From IMG/VR virus record IMGVR_UViG_3300023179_000572, positions 1 to 21,718 of that record: a stretch of DNA of 21,718 nt; one strand, written 5' to 3'. The notes beneath the pieces were generated by a model. It did not search any database. It worked only from the letters and a program-made list of their open reading frames with translations, and was not told the origin of the DNA. Origin of the DNA: a virus. Made by a program: the position numbers and the translations under genes. Below, piece by piece: positions 7,391 to 18,768 of this stretch (the stretch's first letter is position 1; each line of letters starts with the position of its first letter).

Positions 7391-8041
7391 ATGAAACTCA
7401 TCACAGAAGAAGTACAACAAGTTAAGTTTATCACCGAAGGAAAAGGTACTAATAAAAAAATGTTTATTGAAGGTATTTTCCTTCAAGGAGACATTTGCAA
7501 TCGTAATGGAAGAATGTATCCTATGTCAACTCTTGCAAAAGAGGTAAACAGATACAATGAAGCATTTGTTTCCAAAGGTCGTGCTCTTGGAGAACTTGGT
7601 CATCCTGAGGGACCTACTGTTAATCTTGATCGTGTTTCTCATAAAATTGTTTCTCTTACTTGTGAGGGAACTAACTTCAGGGGTAAGGCACAACTTTTAG
7701 AAACTCCAATGGGTAAGATTGCAAAATCTCTTATTGGTGAAGGAGTTTGTCTTGGTGTTTCTTCTCGTGGTGTTGGATCTCTTCAGATGACTAATGAAGG
7801 ACATAAAGTAGTTGGTCCCGATTTTATGTTAGCAACTGCTGCTGATATTGTTGCAGATCCTTCTGCTCCCGATGCCTTTATTTCTGGAATTATGGAAGGT
7901 AAGGAATGGGTTTGGGAAGGTGGAATTCTTCGTGAAAAACTTGCCAAACAAACTAAGCGCAGAATTAATACTTTAGTAGATGAAAGAACACTTCAGGAAC
8001 ATAAGGTTGAATTGTTTCAGGAATTTCTTTCAAATCTTTGA
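7391..8041 (+). CDS. gp21: Prohead core protease gp21
   Basis: Serine protease of the prohead core that cuts the scaffold, gp23 and packaged internal proteins before DNA filling. In T4 it cuts after Glu in (L/I)-x-E|(A/G). It has 216 residues (T4 212). The catalytic His lies in GELGHPE (H71) and the Ser in LGVSSRGVGS (S124/S125), the herpesvirus-assemblin-like arrangement of this family. FIEGIFLQGDICNRNGRMYP near the N-terminus is also typical. The ATG follows the previous stop by one base. Candidate substrates with matching sites in this window are gp22, gp23 and the products at 10951 and 18106. Confidence 0.95.
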   Translation: MKLITEEVQQVKFITEGKGTNKKMFIEGIFLQGDICNRNGRMYPMSTLAKEVNRYNEAFVSKGRALGELGHPEGPTVNLDRVSHKIVSLTCEGTNFRGKAQLLETPMGKIAKSLIGEGVCLGVSSRGVGSLQMTNEGHKVVGPDFMLATAADIVADPSAPDAFISGIMEGKEWVWEGGILREKLAKQTKRRINTLVDERTLQEHKVELFQEFLSNL

Positions 8042-8079: not shown

Positions 8080-9432
8080 ATGTCCGTTGGTAGAAATTTA
8101 CAAGAAATGGAAAACGTAGTAACCAAAGGAGCTGCAGCTGCCGAACCAATGCACAACTTGTCTACAGGAATTGCTCCTGGGCAAACTGGAACTTGGGAAG
8201 ATCTGGGCGGTCCTACTGTAGACAACTATCGTCCAGATGACGATTCAGCAAAACTAAACACTCCTGCAGTAACTTTAGCACAAGTTAAAAATGTTGTTAA
8301 TGCTAAGGCAGCAGCAGCAGAACCTCCATCTAATACTTCTATGCGTAAAGAAGACTCCGATTATGATGAAGATGAGGAACTTCTAGAAGCATCTAAGAAA
8401 GAGGGGGATGATGAAGAGGACGAAGCAGGTAAAAAGAAATCTAACAAAAGAGTAATGAAAGCGTCATACATGAAGAAAGATTCTAAAGAGGACGAAGAGG
8501 ACGAAGAGGACGAAGAGGACGAAGAGGACGAAGAGGACGAAGAGGATGAAGAGGATGAAGAGGACGAAGCAGGTAAAAAGAAATCTAAGAAAAGAAGAAT
8601 GAAAGCATCATACATGAAAAAAGGTTCTAAAGATGATGACGACGATGATGACGATGATGATGAAGAAGATGAATCTGGTTATGGTAAAAAAATGGAAGAA
8701 GAGTTTAACATTGAAGAAGATGTTAATGCTCTTCTAGCAGGTGAAGAACTATCTGAAGAGTTTCAAGAAAAGGCACGTACAATCTTTGAAGCTGCTATTC
8801 GTTCAAAGGTTGAACAAATCAAAGAATCTCTTCATTCTTCATATGAAGAAGCACTTATAGAGGAGATTGAATTAATCAAGGAAGACTTGGTTGATAGAGT
8901 CGATACTTATCTTGAGTATGTTGCTGATGAGTGGTTCTCTGAGAATGTACTCGCAGTTGAGCACGGTCTTAAGACCGAAATGACCGAGAGCTTCCTCTCG
9001 GGCATGAAGCAACTTTTTGAAGATCATTATGTAACTGTTCCTGAAGATAGATATGATGTAATCGAAAGCATGGTAGATAAACTTGATGAAATGGAAGAAA
9101 AACTCAACGAGCAAATTTCAAGAAATGTTGCTCTTAATAGAAGATTAGCCGAGTCGGTTGCTGATGTAATCTTTGCAGATGTCGCTGAGGGTCTTGCACT
9201 TTCTCAGAAGGACAAACTCGCTTCTCTTGCCGAAAATGTTGAGTTTGATGGTGAAGCAGAATATCGTGAGAAACTAGTAATGTTGAGAAATTCTTATTTC
9301 CCAATCAGTGCTAGTACTCCAAGAGATAACTCTGAAAACTTGTCTGAAAGCACAGATGTTCAAAATCAACCACAAGTTGGCAGCATCATGGAAGCTTATC
9401 TTCAGACTCTTAGTAGAGTTGCCAAAAAGTGA
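8080..9432 (+). CDS. gp22: Prohead scaffold (major core) protein gp22 with acidic repeat insertion
   Basis: Main internal scaffold on which gp23 assembles; gp21 later digests it. It has 450 residues against 269 in T4. The C-terminal half (about 205-450) is the charged, helical scaffold core. The extra length is an N-terminal region with two VxxKAAAAEP-like motifs (about 15-23 and 74-82) and a very acidic section (about 92-200). That section has two copies of a 25-residue EDEAGKKKSxKRxMKASYMKK-type unit, nine EDE triplets between them and a ten-Asp run after. Sites fitting (L/I)xE|A occur at LLE103|A, IFE237|A and IME438|A. The gene sits between gp21 and gp23 as in T4. Confidence 0.93.
   Translation: MSVGRNLQEMENVVTKGAAAAEPMHNLSTGIAPGQTGTWEDLGGPTVDNYRPDDDSAKLNTPAVTLAQVKNVVNAKAAAAEPPSNTSMRKEDSDYDEDEELLEASKKEGDDEEDEAGKKKSNKRVMKASYMKKDSKEDEEDEEDEEDEEDEEDEEDEEDEEDEAGKKKSKKRRMKASYMKKGSKDDDDDDDDDDEEDESGYGKKMEEEFNIEEDVNALLAGEELSEEFQEKARTIFEAAIRSKVEQIKESLHSSYEEALIEEIELIKEDLVDRVDTYLEYVADEWFSENVLAVEHGLKTEMTESFLSGMKQLFEDHYVTVPEDRYDVIESMVDKLDEMEEKLNEQISRNVALNRRLAESVADVIFADVAEGLALSQKDKLASLAENVEFDGEAEYREKLVMLRNSYFPISASTPRDNSENLSESTDVQNQPQVGSIMEAYLQTLSRVAKK
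8413..8631 (+). repeat. Duplicated 75-nt unit within gene 22
   Basis: Two in-frame copies, 8413-8487 and 8557-8631, are offset by 144 bases (48 codons). Both encode an EDEAGKKKS-K/R-MKASYMKK-SK unit, with substitutions such as SNKRVM versus SKKRRM and KKDSK versus KKGSK. The nine-fold GAGGAYGAA array separates them. This looks like duplication followed by divergence. Confidence 0.85.
8488..8568 (+). repeat. Nine tandem copies of a 9-bp GAGGAYGAA repeat in gene 22
   Basis: 81 bases made of nine GAG-GAC/T-GAA units, encoding (Glu-Asp-Glu)x9, residues 137-163 of gp22. Seven units have GAC and two have GAT. Because each unit is three codons, gain or loss of units keeps the frame. A GAT/GAC run for ten Asp follows at 8632-8661. 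Confidence 0.95.
8964..9001 (+). other. Two adjacent perfect hairpins inside gene 22
   Basis: CGGTCTTAAGACCG (8964-8977) is a perfect palindrome that can fold as a 5-bp stem with a TTAA loop. Six bases later CCGAGAG (8984-8990) pairs perfectly with CTCTCGG (8995-9001) around CTTC. No T-tract follows. They are more GC-rich than the surroundings. Confidence 0.6.
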
Positions 9433-9485: not shown

Positions 9486-10883
9486 ATGCAAATGTTCAAT
9501 GCGGAATATTTGCAGGAGAAGTGGGCACCAATCCTTGACTATGAGGGTCTTGATTCAATCAAAGATTCACATCGTAGAGCGGTAACTGCTATCCTGCTAG
9601 AAAACCAAGAGAAAGAACTACGTGAAGAGAGTTCTTTCCTCTCAGAAGCTCCAACTGTAAATACTTTTTCAAGCACAGGAACTGCAGGTTTCTCTGCTGG
9701 TGCTTCTTCACCAGTTGCTGGTTTCGATCCTGTTCTAATCAGCCTTATCCGTCGTGCAATGCCTAACTTGGTCGCTTATGACCTTGCTGGTGTTCAACCA
9801 ATGAACGGACCTACTGGTCTTATCTTTGCGATGCGTTCTAAGTATAAGACCATGAATGGAACTGAAGCTCTGTTCAACGAAGCTGATACTGCATTCTCAG
9901 GTCAGAGTAGCGCACAAAACCTCACCAGTGGATTCACTAGCGGTTCTGTTGGTCTTGGTACAACTACTCAGCGTGGTACTAACCCAGGTCTTCTGAACCC
10001 AGAATCGGGACAAACCGCAACGACCTACAACGTAGGCGAAGGTATGCGTACCGATGACGCAGAAAATCTAGGTGGCGGTGCTGGTGCTGGTGACCAGTTT
10101 AACGAAATGGCATTCTCAATTGAGAAAGTCACCGTTACTGCTAAGTCAAGAGCACTCAAAGCAGAATACACTCTAGAACTCGCACAAGACCTAAAAGCAA
10201 TCCATGGTTTGAATGCTGAGGCTGAACTCGCAAACATTCTCTCAACTGAGATTCTTGCTGAAATCAATCGTGAAGTTATCCGTACCATCTATAATGTTGC
10301 TGAGTCTGGTGCTCAGGCAAACACTGCTTCTGCAGGTATCTTCGATCTAGACGTCGACTCCAACGGTCGTTGGTCGGTTGAGAAGTTCAAGGGTCTTATT
10401 TTCCAAATCGAGCGCGATGCTAACGCAATCGCACAAAGAACTCGTAGAGGGAAGGGTAACATGATCCTCTGCTCTGCTGACGTTGCTTCGGCACTCACCA
10501 TGGCAGGTGTTCTTGATTACACCCCTGCACTCAACGCTAACCTCAACGTTGATGATACTGGCAACACTTTTGCTGGTGTTCTGCAAGGTAAGTATCGTGT
10601 TTATATCGATCCTTATTCGGCAAACGTTTCTGCTAACCAATACTATGTTGTTGGTTATAAGGGTTCTTCACCATATGATGCAGGTTTATTCTACTGCCCA
10701 TACGTTCCTCTCCAAATGGTTCGTGCTGTTGGTCAGGACACCTTCCAGCCTAAGATCGGCTTCAAGACCAGATATGGTCTTGTTGCTAACCCATTCGCTG
10801 AAGGAACTACCGTTGGTGCAGGTCGCCTCCAGATGAACTCCAACCGTTACTACAGAAGAGTACGTGTTGACAACCTAATGTGA
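9486..10883 (+). CDS. gp23: Major capsid protein gp23
   Basis: HK97-fold hexamer subunit of the head. It has 465 residues (T4 521). The match to T4 gp23 is clear: an N-terminal helix region ending FLSE|A (cleavage after E54; T4 has FLTE|A at 65), then RRAMPNLVAYDLAGVQPM, ALKAEYTLELAQDLKAIHG, ILAEINREVIR, FAGVLQGKYRVYIDPY and the C-terminal IGFKTRYGLVANPFAE. The length difference lies mainly in the middle. The ribosome leader GAGGTAAAACAAATG (9474-9488) resembles that of gene 19. The gene uses more C-ending codons (AAC, CTC, ATC, GAC) than its neighbours, as expected for a very highly expressed protein. A strong terminator follows. Confidence 0.98.
   Translation: MQMFNAEYLQEKWAPILDYEGLDSIKDSHRRAVTAILLENQEKELREESSFLSEAPTVNTFSSTGTAGFSAGASSPVAGFDPVLISLIRRAMPNLVAYDLAGVQPMNGPTGLIFAMRSKYKTMNGTEALFNEADTAFSGQSSAQNLTSGFTSGSVGLGTTTQRGTNPGLLNPESGQTATTYNVGEGMRTDDAENLGGGAGAGDQFNEMAFSIEKVTVTAKSRALKAEYTLELAQDLKAIHGLNAEAELANILSTEILAEINREVIRTIYNVAESGAQANTASAGIFDLDVDSNGRWSVEKFKGLIFQIERDANAIAQRTRRGKGNMILCSADVASALTMAGVLDYTPALNANLNVDDTGNTFAGVLQGKYRVYIDPYSANVSANQYYVVGYKGSSPYDAGLFYCPYVPLQMVRAVGQDTFQPKIGFKTRYGLVANPFAEGTTVGAGRLQMNSNRYYRRVRVDNLM
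9611..9638 (+). other. Inverted repeat near the 5' end of gene 23
   Basis: GAAAGAACT (9611-9619) pairs perfectly with AGTTCTTTC (9630-9638) around a 10-base loop, and can extend by AGAG/CTCT pairs with one bulge. It lies in codons 42-51, just before the codons for the FLSE|A processing site. Role unknown. Confidence 0.45.
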
Positions 10884-10903
10884 GTTATATTCACATATTC
10901 TCT

Positions 10904-10929
10904 GGGGTGCTCAGGCACCCCTTTTTTTT
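10904..10929 (+). terminator. Rho-independent terminator after gene 23
   Basis: GGGGTGC (10904-10910), TCAG loop, GCACCCC (10915-10921), then eight T (10922-10929). A perfect 7-bp GC-rich stem with a run of T, placed 21 bases after the gene 23 stop. It separates the abundant capsid transcript from the genes downstream. Confidence 0.93.
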
Positions 10930-10930
10930 A

Positions 10931-10938
10931 TCTAAATA
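10931..10938 (+). promoter_or_regulatory. Late promoter before the RlpA-like gene
   Basis: TCTAAATA matches 7 of 8 positions of TATAAATA, directly after the gene 23 terminator and 13 bases before the next ATG. A promoter is expected here because the terminator cuts off readthrough, but the spacing leaves a very short leader and no clear ribosome site. Confidence 0.42.
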
Positions 10939-10950
10939 AAAATAAAAAAA

Positions 10951-11346
10951 ATGAAAAGTTTTAAGGAGTTTATATCTGAGGCAATTCCTTTTGCTGTTGT
11001 TGGACAAGTAAGTTCTTATGGTCCAGGATTATATGGAAATAAAACCGCTAGTGGATCAGTATTAACTCCTCAGAGTAGAGGAATTGCCAGTAAAACTTTA
11101 CCACTTGGTAGCGATGTTAAAATAACTGATCCAAAAACTGGAAAAAGTGTTACAACCAAAGTAATTGATAGAGGTCCATATGTAGGAGATCGTCAGGCCG
11201 ATTTAACTACACAGACAACCAAAGATCTTGGATATAAAGATTATAAACAGTTTGGTGTTAAAGATATGGATGTAAGTCTTTTAGCAAAAACCAAACCTTC
11301 ATTTCCAACAACACAAAGTAAAGGTTTAATGTACGGAAAGTATTGA
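10951..11346 (+). CDS. RlpA-like double-psi beta-barrel protein with a capsid-targeting N-terminus
   Basis: 131 residues. Residues about 17-95 match the RlpA-type double-psi beta-barrel: VGQVSSYGPGLYGN, KTASGS, ASKTLPLG, VKITDPKTGKSV, then VIDRGPY (Asp 73) and ADLT. Bacterial RlpA proteins bind or cut peptidoglycan. Two residues usual in active RlpA enzymes look replaced: Glu after TASG is Ser36 and His before (K/R)TLP is Ser47. There is no signal peptide or lipobox. Instead the N-terminus MKSFKEFISE|A closely resembles the 10-residue capsid-targeting sequence of T4 internal proteins (MKTYQEFIAE|A) and fits the gp21 site. I infer a head-packaged protein. It lies between gene 23 and the gp3-like gene. 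Confidence 0.82.
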   Translation: MKSFKEFISEAIPFAVVGQVSSYGPGLYGNKTASGSVLTPQSRGIASKTLPLGSDVKITDPKTGKSVTTKVIDRGPYVGDRQADLTTQTTKDLGYKDYKQFGVKDMDVSLLAKTKPSFPTTQSKGLMYGKY

Positions 11347-11347
11347 A

Positions 11348-11893
11348 ATGACACGATCACCTTTTACCAACCAAATAGAAAATAGAAATTTCCTATCTCC
11401 CATTGGTTTTAAGTTCACATTATCGAAAGAACCAAAATCTGTTTTCTTTTGTAATAGTGCTAGAATACCAGAGATTAGTTTGCCAACAAATACACAACCA
11501 TCATATCTAAAAGATATTGATATTCCTGGAGAAAAACTTTCTTATGGTGATTTATCAATTAGGTTTTTAGTTGATGAAGATATGAGTAACTATATGTCTA
11601 TTCATAACTGGTTAACTGGACTTGGATATCCAGAATCAACATCAGAATACAGAAATTTAATTACTCAAGATGATATTAGAGATCCAAAAAAAGCATTTAG
11701 TGATGGAACTCTTCACATTTTGAACAGTAGCTTTAGGGACAATGCTCTTGTCAGATTCAAAGATTTATTTCCAGTTTCATTAACATCTTTAGAGTTTGAT
11801 GCAACTCAATCTGATATTCAGTACTTTACAGCAGACGTATCTTTCAAGTATACTATTTACAATATAACAGGAACAAACGGAAAACCTTTATGA
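11348..11893 (+). CDS. gp3: Tail completion and sheath stabiliser protein gp3-like
   Basis: 181 residues (T4 gp3 is about 176). In T4-like cyanophages the gene between 23 and uvsY is the gp3 tail terminator, which caps the tube and stabilises the sheath. Visible features are a beta-rich N-terminus (LSPIGFKFTL), NSARIPEISLPTNTQPSY, YGDLSIRFLVDEDMSNYMSIHNWLTGLGYPE and a C-terminal strand VSFKYTIYNI. This pattern resembles a tube-like fold, so a gp19-family paralogue (tube initiator or terminator) is the alternative. The ATG is one base after the previous stop, and its TGA overlaps the uvsY ATG (ATGA), tying it to recombination genes. Confidence 0.72.
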   Translation: MTRSPFTNQIENRNFLSPIGFKFTLSKEPKSVFFCNSARIPEISLPTNTQPSYLKDIDIPGEKLSYGDLSIRFLVDEDMSNYMSIHNWLTGLGYPESTSEYRNLITQDDIRDPKKAFSDGTLHILNSSFRDNALVRFKDLFPVSLTSLEFDATQSDIQYFTADVSFKYTIYNITGTNGKPL

Positions 11894-18105: not shown

Positions 18106-18768
18106 ATGAGAGATCAAGAAATTATCGGACTTTGGGAAGCTTACCAACAAGTTCATTCTCAAGTAGAAGAAGTAGAACAACTTGATGAAGATGATGCATA
18201 CGATAGAAATCGTAGAAGAGCAGCACAAAGGGCACAAGCAAGAAACGAAGCAAGAGCAAGGGGACAAACTGGTTCTGTTCCTGGCGTAGGTTATGTATCT
18301 CCTAGACCAGAAAGAGCAACTTATACTGATTCTGCTGGTGTTGTAAGACATCATACTGGTGCTAGAATGCCTAAAAAAGAAGATCAAACAGAATCATACG
18401 ATTTCTTTAACTATCTCCTAGAATACCTAGTTGCCGAAGGTTATGCTAATACCAACAAGGCAGCTCTTGCTATTATGGCAAATATGAGTGAAGAGTGGAA
18501 GCAGAGTATTGTTGAGGGTATGTTTGATTTTCTTCCAAAATCAAACATTAGTTCTCCTGGAATGTATGGAAAAAACACCGTTCTCTCTATGAAAAAGGGT
18601 GTTGAGGGAGTATCCGACAAAACTAAACCTGGCACATTTACTAAACAACCAGGTGGTTGGGATACAACAGATGCTAATAGATATAGTGATGAAAAAATCA
18701 AGCAAGGTGCTGAATCTGGTGGTGTAAATCTCGCTAATCGCAGAACAAACCCAAACAGAATACAATAA
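18106..18768 (+). CDS. Putative internal head protein with capsid-targeting-like N-terminus
   Basis: 220 residues, under an exact late promoter. The N-terminus MRDQEIIGLWE|A ends in a site fitting the gp21 rule (L-W-E|A, after E11), as in T4 capsid-targeting sequences. Then come an acidic stretch (EEVEQLDEDD), a basic Arg/Ala-rich stretch (about 33-52, RNRRRAAQRAQARNEARAR), and a module at 99-137 containing FNYLLEYLVAEGYANT and AIMANMSEEWKQSIVE, which ends in a second possible site (I-V-E|G). From memory, similar 'EGYA-T...AxxIMANMSEEW' modules recur in hypothetical proteins of T4-like cyanophages, but I cannot check this. The C-terminal 75 residues are polar and likely disordered. I infer a packaged DNA-binding protein. 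No homologue with known function. Confidence 0.8.
   Translation: MRDQEIIGLWEAYQQVHSQVEEVEQLDEDDAYDRNRRRAAQRAQARNEARARGQTGSVPGVGYVSPRPERATYTDSAGVVRHHTGARMPKKEDQTESYDFFNYLLEYLVAEGYANTNKAALAIMANMSEEWKQSIVEGMFDFLPKSNISSPGMYGKNTVLSMKKGVEGVSDKTKPGTFTKQPGGWDTTDANRYSDEKIKQGAESGGVNLANRRTNPNRIQ

Follow-up and report, generated by a model that had tools for sequence, protein, structure and literature searches.

Why would a T4-like virus of cyanobacteria send a cell-wall-type domain through its capsid, although relatives of that virus secrete the same domain? Little has been established about which proteins cyanophages inject at the start of infection, and contamination has been suspected as the source of the enzymes in their virions. 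Here, we analyse a gene for an RlpA-like double-psi beta-barrel (DPBB) protein that begins with a sequence resembling the capsid-targeting sequence (CTS) of T4 internal proteins. The window, meaning the whole stretch of DNA analysed, is the complete virus record of 21.7 kb. We infer that the DPBB protein is very probably packaged inside the head of a cyanophage, in the manner of the T4 internal proteins, because of the tag, its conservation and the selection on it, the position of the gene, the matching presumed site in gp23, the modular use of the tag and virion data on other phages.

Gene order around the DPBB gene

An open reading frame at 10951-11346 on the forward strand, named in an earlier sequence-only reading, is present and encodes 131 residues. 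The window has a T4-like gene order: gp17, gp18, gp19, gp20, gp21, gp22, gp23, the tagged DPBB gene, gp3, UvsY and UvsW. Here gp17-gp19 were assigned by reading of the frames and by the matching order in S-CREM2 and S-SZBM1, the other families come from PHROG matches, and the name gp3 is taken from P-SSM2, where the gene at the corresponding place is so called. The features next to the DPBB gene are the following (a slash in a protein motif marks the cut).

7391..8041, forward strand: gp21 prohead protease (PHROG head maturation protease, 1.3e-79)
8080..9432, forward strand: gp22 scaffold (PHROG head scaffolding, 3.5e-101)
9486..10883, forward strand: gp23 major capsid protein (PHROG major head protein, 1.5e-173)
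nt 9636-9647, forward strand: presumed gp21 site FLSE/AP inside gp23, residues 51-54
10904..10929, forward strand: intrinsic terminator after gp23, stem GGGGTGC/GCACCCC followed by a T-run
10932..10938, forward strand: late-promoter-like CTAAATA, 12 bases 5' of the DPBB ATG
11348..11893, forward strand: the next gene, a gp3-type tail completion or tail tube protein (PHROG tail tube, 2.3e-42)

Since gp23 is 84% identical to that of Prochlorococcus phage P-SSM2, we take the phage to be a cyanophage of the Kyanoviridae type. As a host marker psbA was rejected, being found in only one of 13 contigs, all of them fragments, and the host group was read from gp23 instead. The sequence CTAAATA occurs only twice in the window, the second time directly before gp20, and recurs in most of the relatives that have an intergenic stretch in front of the gene; a hairpin with a T-run likewise stands at the corresponding place in many relatives of the locus. 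Across 80 related loci, gp23 lies to the left of the DPBB gene in 67 and gp3 to the right in 68, and wherever gp23 on the left or gp3 on the right is missing (12 of the 80 loci on the right), that side of the locus shows no gene of the window.

The gap between gp23 and gp3 (10884-11347) is a slot whose content varies by phage. Apart from the DPBB, it holds a 2OG-Fe(II) oxygenase in P-SSM2, with an N-terminus that lacks the tag, an annotated intron endonuclease in S-CREM2 and a small tagged protein of 56 residues, starting MKSFQQFQED, in S-SRM01. Elsewhere in the window, gp22 shows at 8361-8615 long acidic runs (EDEEDEEDEED, DDDDDDDDDD) beside basic KKKSKK blocks, which is unusual for a scaffold, and a protein of 220 residues at 18106-18768 has PHROG matches that are all unannotated.

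The N-terminal tag

T4 IPII and IPIII begin with MKTYQEFIAE/A. The DPBB protein of the window, MKSFKEFISEA, is identical to this sequence at 7 of 11 positions (M1, K2, E6, F7, I8, E10 and A11), in agreement with the count in the sequence-only reading.

10951..10980, forward strand: CTS-like tag, residues 1-10 (MKSFKEFISE), with the predicted gp21 cut at E10/A11 (10980/10981)
10981..11010, forward strand: short variable linker, residues 11-20 (dN/dS 0.39)

With Met fixed and the residue composition taken from other N-termini in the window, the chance of at least six further matches to the T4 CTS is 1.1e-5 per protein. The other 20 genes of the window score 1-3 against the T4 CTS, and none of 125 internal Met positions scores above 3. 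When the first 24 residues are searched alone, their best PHROG match is 'internal head protein', residues 1-12 aligning with 1-12, at a weak E of 0.24. In a T-even-type record of 168 kb (L152), four proteins start with MKTYKEFIAEA or MKTYKEFITEA.

Genetic work on T4 has shown that targeting by the CTS depends mainly on residues 4 and 7, and processing on residues 8 and 10 (PMC9026906). In all 56 sequences of the family, position 4 is Phe or Tyr and position 7 is Phe (F4 and F7 in the window), while position 8 is hydrophobic in 50 and position 10 is Glu in 52 of them. Residues 8-10 of the window tag read ISE/A, which fits a gp21-type (L/I)xE site, and on one and the same contig the tag end FISE/A resembles the phage's own gp23 site FLSE/A; FL[SYG]E was found in every gp23 read. 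The tag has a dN/dS of 0.07, compared with 0.39 for linker codons 12-20 and 0.16 for the domain: the tag is under purifying selection, and constraint is relaxed in the linker that follows the predicted cut.

Homologues lacking the first 11 residues were looked for in close relatives and none was found: the tag is present in each of the 57 distinct relatives, once in a shifted frame. The candidate tagless relative L072/L201 proved to have a frameshift, its tag lying in another frame. Relatives were searched with the tag pattern and with domain-only patterns, both of which favour close relatives; the result was the same, so that a detection bias from using the tag as the search pattern could be dismissed.

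By analogy with T4, most members of the family are likely to be cut after E10. The mature protein is predicted to comprise 121 residues, with a mass of 12.9 kDa and a pI of 9.7 (family median 10.0). The trimming by gp21 that the sequence-only reading had proposed would not extend to every relative: one clade (L073-L081, L254 and L261), with tags ending in FQEQA or FQEEI and a longer linker with extra charges, has kept the targeting residues but lost the processing residues of the gp21 site, although its gp23 still has FL(S/G)E.

The same tag on other proteins

A degenerate DNA pattern for MK[ST][FY][KQ]EFIxEA matched at least 119 stretches in viral contigs, which give at least 123 ORFs in at least 39 otherwise distinct clusters, the T-even internal proteins included. 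A permuted pattern gave no match, and in 257 Gb of cellular genomes the tag pattern itself gave a single match, to a family also present in viral contigs. These counts, together with the chance of 1.1e-5 per protein, rule out a fortuitous resemblance to the CTS.

Among the matches listed, gp21 is present in all eight tag-bearing records above 150 kb (and in 12 of 19 large records overall), and the tagged proteins have a median pI of 9.8, with 91% above 8.5, compared with 5.5 for the other genes of the window. The CTS-like proteins of T-even phages have been reported to be basic (PMC9026906). Among the tagged cargo are a SAM lyase (Pfam 1.3e-15), a protein with a weak PARP-like match, DUF5661 and GNAT, and more tagged proteins, some of them ADP-ribosyltransferase-like, share contigs with the tagged DPBB gene. 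The sequence-only reading had noted neither that T4-like phages use the tag generally nor that related free-standing DPBBs carry a secretion signal instead.

The DPBB domain and its possible task

The assignment of the cargo to the RlpA-like DPBBs held up in sequence and structure comparisons. The protein matches Pfam DPBB_1 with an E of 8e-9 (36.0 bits, cut-off 28.8) and PDB entry 4avr (PA4485) by sequence with an E of 6e-9; the AlphaFold2 model, with a pLDDT of 76, is a DPBB that Foldseek matches to 4avr at 3e-8 (VIA Z 15.5, rmsd 1.7 over 94 residues).

10993..11283, forward strand: RlpA-like DPBB, about residues 15-111, its first strand overlapping the linker (Pfam, PDB, model)
11089-11091, forward strand: S47, His in 51 of 56 sequences
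11167-11169, forward strand: invariant D73, the Asp of DRGP
11200-11202, forward strand: invariant D84, by motif spacing the catalytic D168 of P. aeruginosa RlpA
11284..11343, forward strand: variable C-terminal tail (pLDDT below 50 for residues 114-131)

In P. aeruginosa RlpA, the catalytic Asp is D168 (PMC9712689). Judged from these residues, the putative cleavage of peptidoglycan is plausible, as the catalytic Asp is invariant, yet the conserved His is Ser in the window copy. As a domain of the RlpA lytic-transglycosylase type with its catalytic Asp retained, the DPBB would most likely act on host peptidoglycan or another glycan; peptidoglycan itself is a possible target that we name with some reserve.

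How could such a protein reach the host? The CTS proteins of T4 bind the gp22 core, and the DPBB protein, presumably expressed late, would join the gp22 prohead core through F4 and F7. Subsequently, gp21 would cut after E10, and the basic DPBB of 121 residues would stay among the packaged DNA. At the next infection the mature DPBB would, reasoning from T4, probably be ejected into the host with the DNA, where its target might be peptidoglycan or another glycan, either during entry or very soon afterwards. Binding to the wall, interference with the septum and assistance in DNA entry, suggested in the sequence-only reading, would be putative roles of such an effector.

The main rival to peptidoglycan action is a binding role in the cytoplasm: the protein would be packaged and ejected, but would act away from peptidoglycan, with the DPBB serving as a binding module, for instance against a defence protein. 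A precedent is T4 IPI, an anti-restriction inhibitor that acts against GmrSD (PMC3012670), and other tagged cargo (the SAM lyase, the PARP-like ADP-ribosyltransferase and GNAT) looks cytoplasmic. A protein passing through a T4-type tail tube would also be expected to arrive in the cytoplasm, a compartment devoid of peptidoglycan, which counts against a wall role and is why we favour action on peptidoglycan only tentatively; the Ser in place of His at position 47 of the window copy points the same way. Nonetheless, we consider the binding role rather unlikely, as D73 and D84 are invariant in 56 of 56 sequences and His 47 is present in 51, which is expected of an enzyme and not of a fast-evolving inhibitor.

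Published virion proteomes

Virions of S-CREM2 were found to contain 52 proteins (PMC10665884). Among the annotated CDS of this phage (OR473000), the core motif [FY]xx[FY][ILMVF]xE occurs within the first 12 residues of ORF6, ORF14, ORF136 and ORF154, and all four proteins are in the virion (Fisher p 0.0026; 2.7e-4 without the named structural proteins), p-values that flatter because the residue classes were chosen after the N-termini of S-CREM2 had been seen. With a different motif expression, ORF6, 13, 14 and 154 are selected, again all in the virion. In the Cas9-like ORF12, which was also detected in virions, the motif lies deeper in the sequence but still among the first 30 residues (FASFMAE/A near residue 25).

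The non-structural ORFs 6, 12, 13, 14 and 154 of the S-CREM2 virion (L301, L303) thus have CTS-like N-termini or N-terminal regions, and include a SAM hydrolase, an APH-like kinase, a cytidylyltransferase and a Cas9-like nuclease. Like the DPBB protein, the first three of these enzymes are virion proteins with tag-like starts (MKDFDSFLEE, VKRFDAFLTE and MKNFSSFLTE/A), while their cargo differs. The authors left contamination open for the virion enzymes, and the sections of their report that were consulted make no mention of a targeting tag (PMC10665884). In S-SZBM1, with a shallower proteome of 30 proteins, one of three motif-bearing proteins, a cytidylyltransferase, was detected (PMC9146016). 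A kinase of S-CRM01 that has been reported in virions starts with MISFDQFLSE, and the virion proteome of S-CREM1 comprises 14 proteins.

These data bear on the possibility that the tag-like N-terminus is a common feature of T4-like phages with another role and does not lead to packaging. Its high frequency in these phages and the absence of two of the three S-SZBM1 motif proteins from the detected virion set would fit such a role. However, the tag is built like the CTS that was defined by experiment in T4, its FxxE/A imitates the site at which gp23 is cut, and mass spectrometry found every one of the S-CREM2 motif proteins in the virion, so that we regard another role as very unlikely. Capsid targeting, as the sequence-only reading had suggested, is well supported by the selection on the tag, its invariant positions 4 and 7, the gp23 site and the presence of gp21 and gp22 on the contig, and further by the tag on T-even internal proteins and many other families and by the virion mass spectrometry of tagged proteins in a related cyanophage.

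Secretion signal or capsid tag

Could the N-terminus be a weak signal peptide on a secreted enzyme for lysis or wall remodelling? Free-standing DPBBs with Sec-like N-termini occur in S-PM2, S-CREM1, S-CRM01, B23 and several rhizobial phages, and those of the four named phages and of OLIVR5, ORM_20 and phiM12 have hydrophobic or lipoprotein-like N-termini. The moderately hydrophobic stretch IPFAVVG gives the window protein a maximal 11-residue hydropathy of 1.88, compared with 1.91-2.96 for signal-bearing phage DPBBs. In the family, however, the median is 1.38 and the minimum -0.25; the stretch is unconserved and interrupted by charged insertions in some relatives, the would-be n-region contains two acidic residues, and constraint falls on the tag and not on the hydrophobic stretch. 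The earlier statement that there is no signal peptide thus holds for the family, whereas the window copy taken alone is borderline, and a secreted enzyme is a highly improbable reading.

The free-standing proteins S-PM2p158, SCREM1_51, SCRM01_109c and B23 gp360 resemble the packaged candidate in being phage-encoded domains with DRGP and (I/L/A)DL(S/T) motifs, but their N-termini are Sec-like signals and their genes occupy other genomic positions. The DPBB domain therefore appears under two addresses, secretion and capsid.

Least probable of all is a place in the tail or baseplate. In its favour, DPBBs commonly serve as hub domains in phages, the hub of cyanophage A-1(L) (8kea) ranks second among the fold matches, gp3 follows directly and S-CBWM1 has a DPBB in a long protein beside the tape measure. 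But these DPBBs are domains of long proteins without the tag, the window protein is a free-standing, basic 13-kDa protein with a prohead address, and its slot is filled by unrelated genes in other phages.

Relation to known systems

The DPBB protein, which we take to be an internal head protein, shares with T4 IPI, IPII and IPIII the 10-residue N-terminal tag, in which residues 4 and 7 serve targeting and residues 8 and 10 serve processing (PMC9026906), the (L/I)xE before Ala, a basic mature protein, unrelated cargo behind the tag and the presence of gp21 and gp22. It differs from them in having an RlpA-type DPBB as cargo, Phe in place of Tyr4 and a gene between gp23 and gp3; moreover, its phage is a cyanophage by gp23 relatedness, and its packaging is predicted from sequence. 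With P. aeruginosa RlpA and PA4485 it has in common the DPBB, the catalytic Asp (D168 corresponding to D84), DRGP and an LP(L/F)G motif. RlpA, in contrast, is periplasmic and has a SPOR domain, and the window copy has Ser for the conserved His.

T7 gp16 resides inside the head, has lytic-transglycosylase activity and leaves with the ejected material at infection. Unlike the DPBB of the window, it is a large core protein, belongs to a short-tailed phage, has a fold of another kind and lacks a cleavable tag. Should the DPBB of the window cleave peptidoglycan, a contractile-tailed phage would be delivering a wall enzyme from within its head.

CTS proteins of T-even phages are covered in reviews of T4, which suggest that the CTS is used more widely, and no report of a CTS in cyanophages, or of a DPBB as CTS cargo, was found in the open-access literature. 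The targeting system is known; the cargo is new, and the system is extended to cyanophages. A short sequence rule derived from T4 genetics picks candidates from sequence alone and explains several virion enzymes, and for the DPBB protein it makes an exact prediction, a new N-terminus at residue 11. With greater reserve than for the peptidoglycan target, we suggest that in T4-like phages, cyanophages included, one portable head address may load a large and changing set of host-entering proteins (SAM lyase, ADP-ribosyltransferases, kinase, Cas9-like nuclease, acetyltransferase), the cargo in this lineage being a peptidoglycan lytic transglycosylase rerouted from secretion to the capsid.

Two tagged families deserve a separate mention. 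The first, a large family (L104, L105, L108, L117, L276 and others) with the motif YHGTSxxxxxKIxxSGF, looks ADP-ribosyltransferase-like, with weak matches to Pfam PARP and PHROG RNA 2'-phosphotransferase, and would be a parallel to T4 Alt. The second is an S-AdoMet lyase family (L160, L187, L195 and L136; the Pfam match of 1.3e-15 is that of L160) with an N-terminal part similar to S-CREM2 ORF6, and such a tagged lyase would be an injected anti-restriction enzyme.
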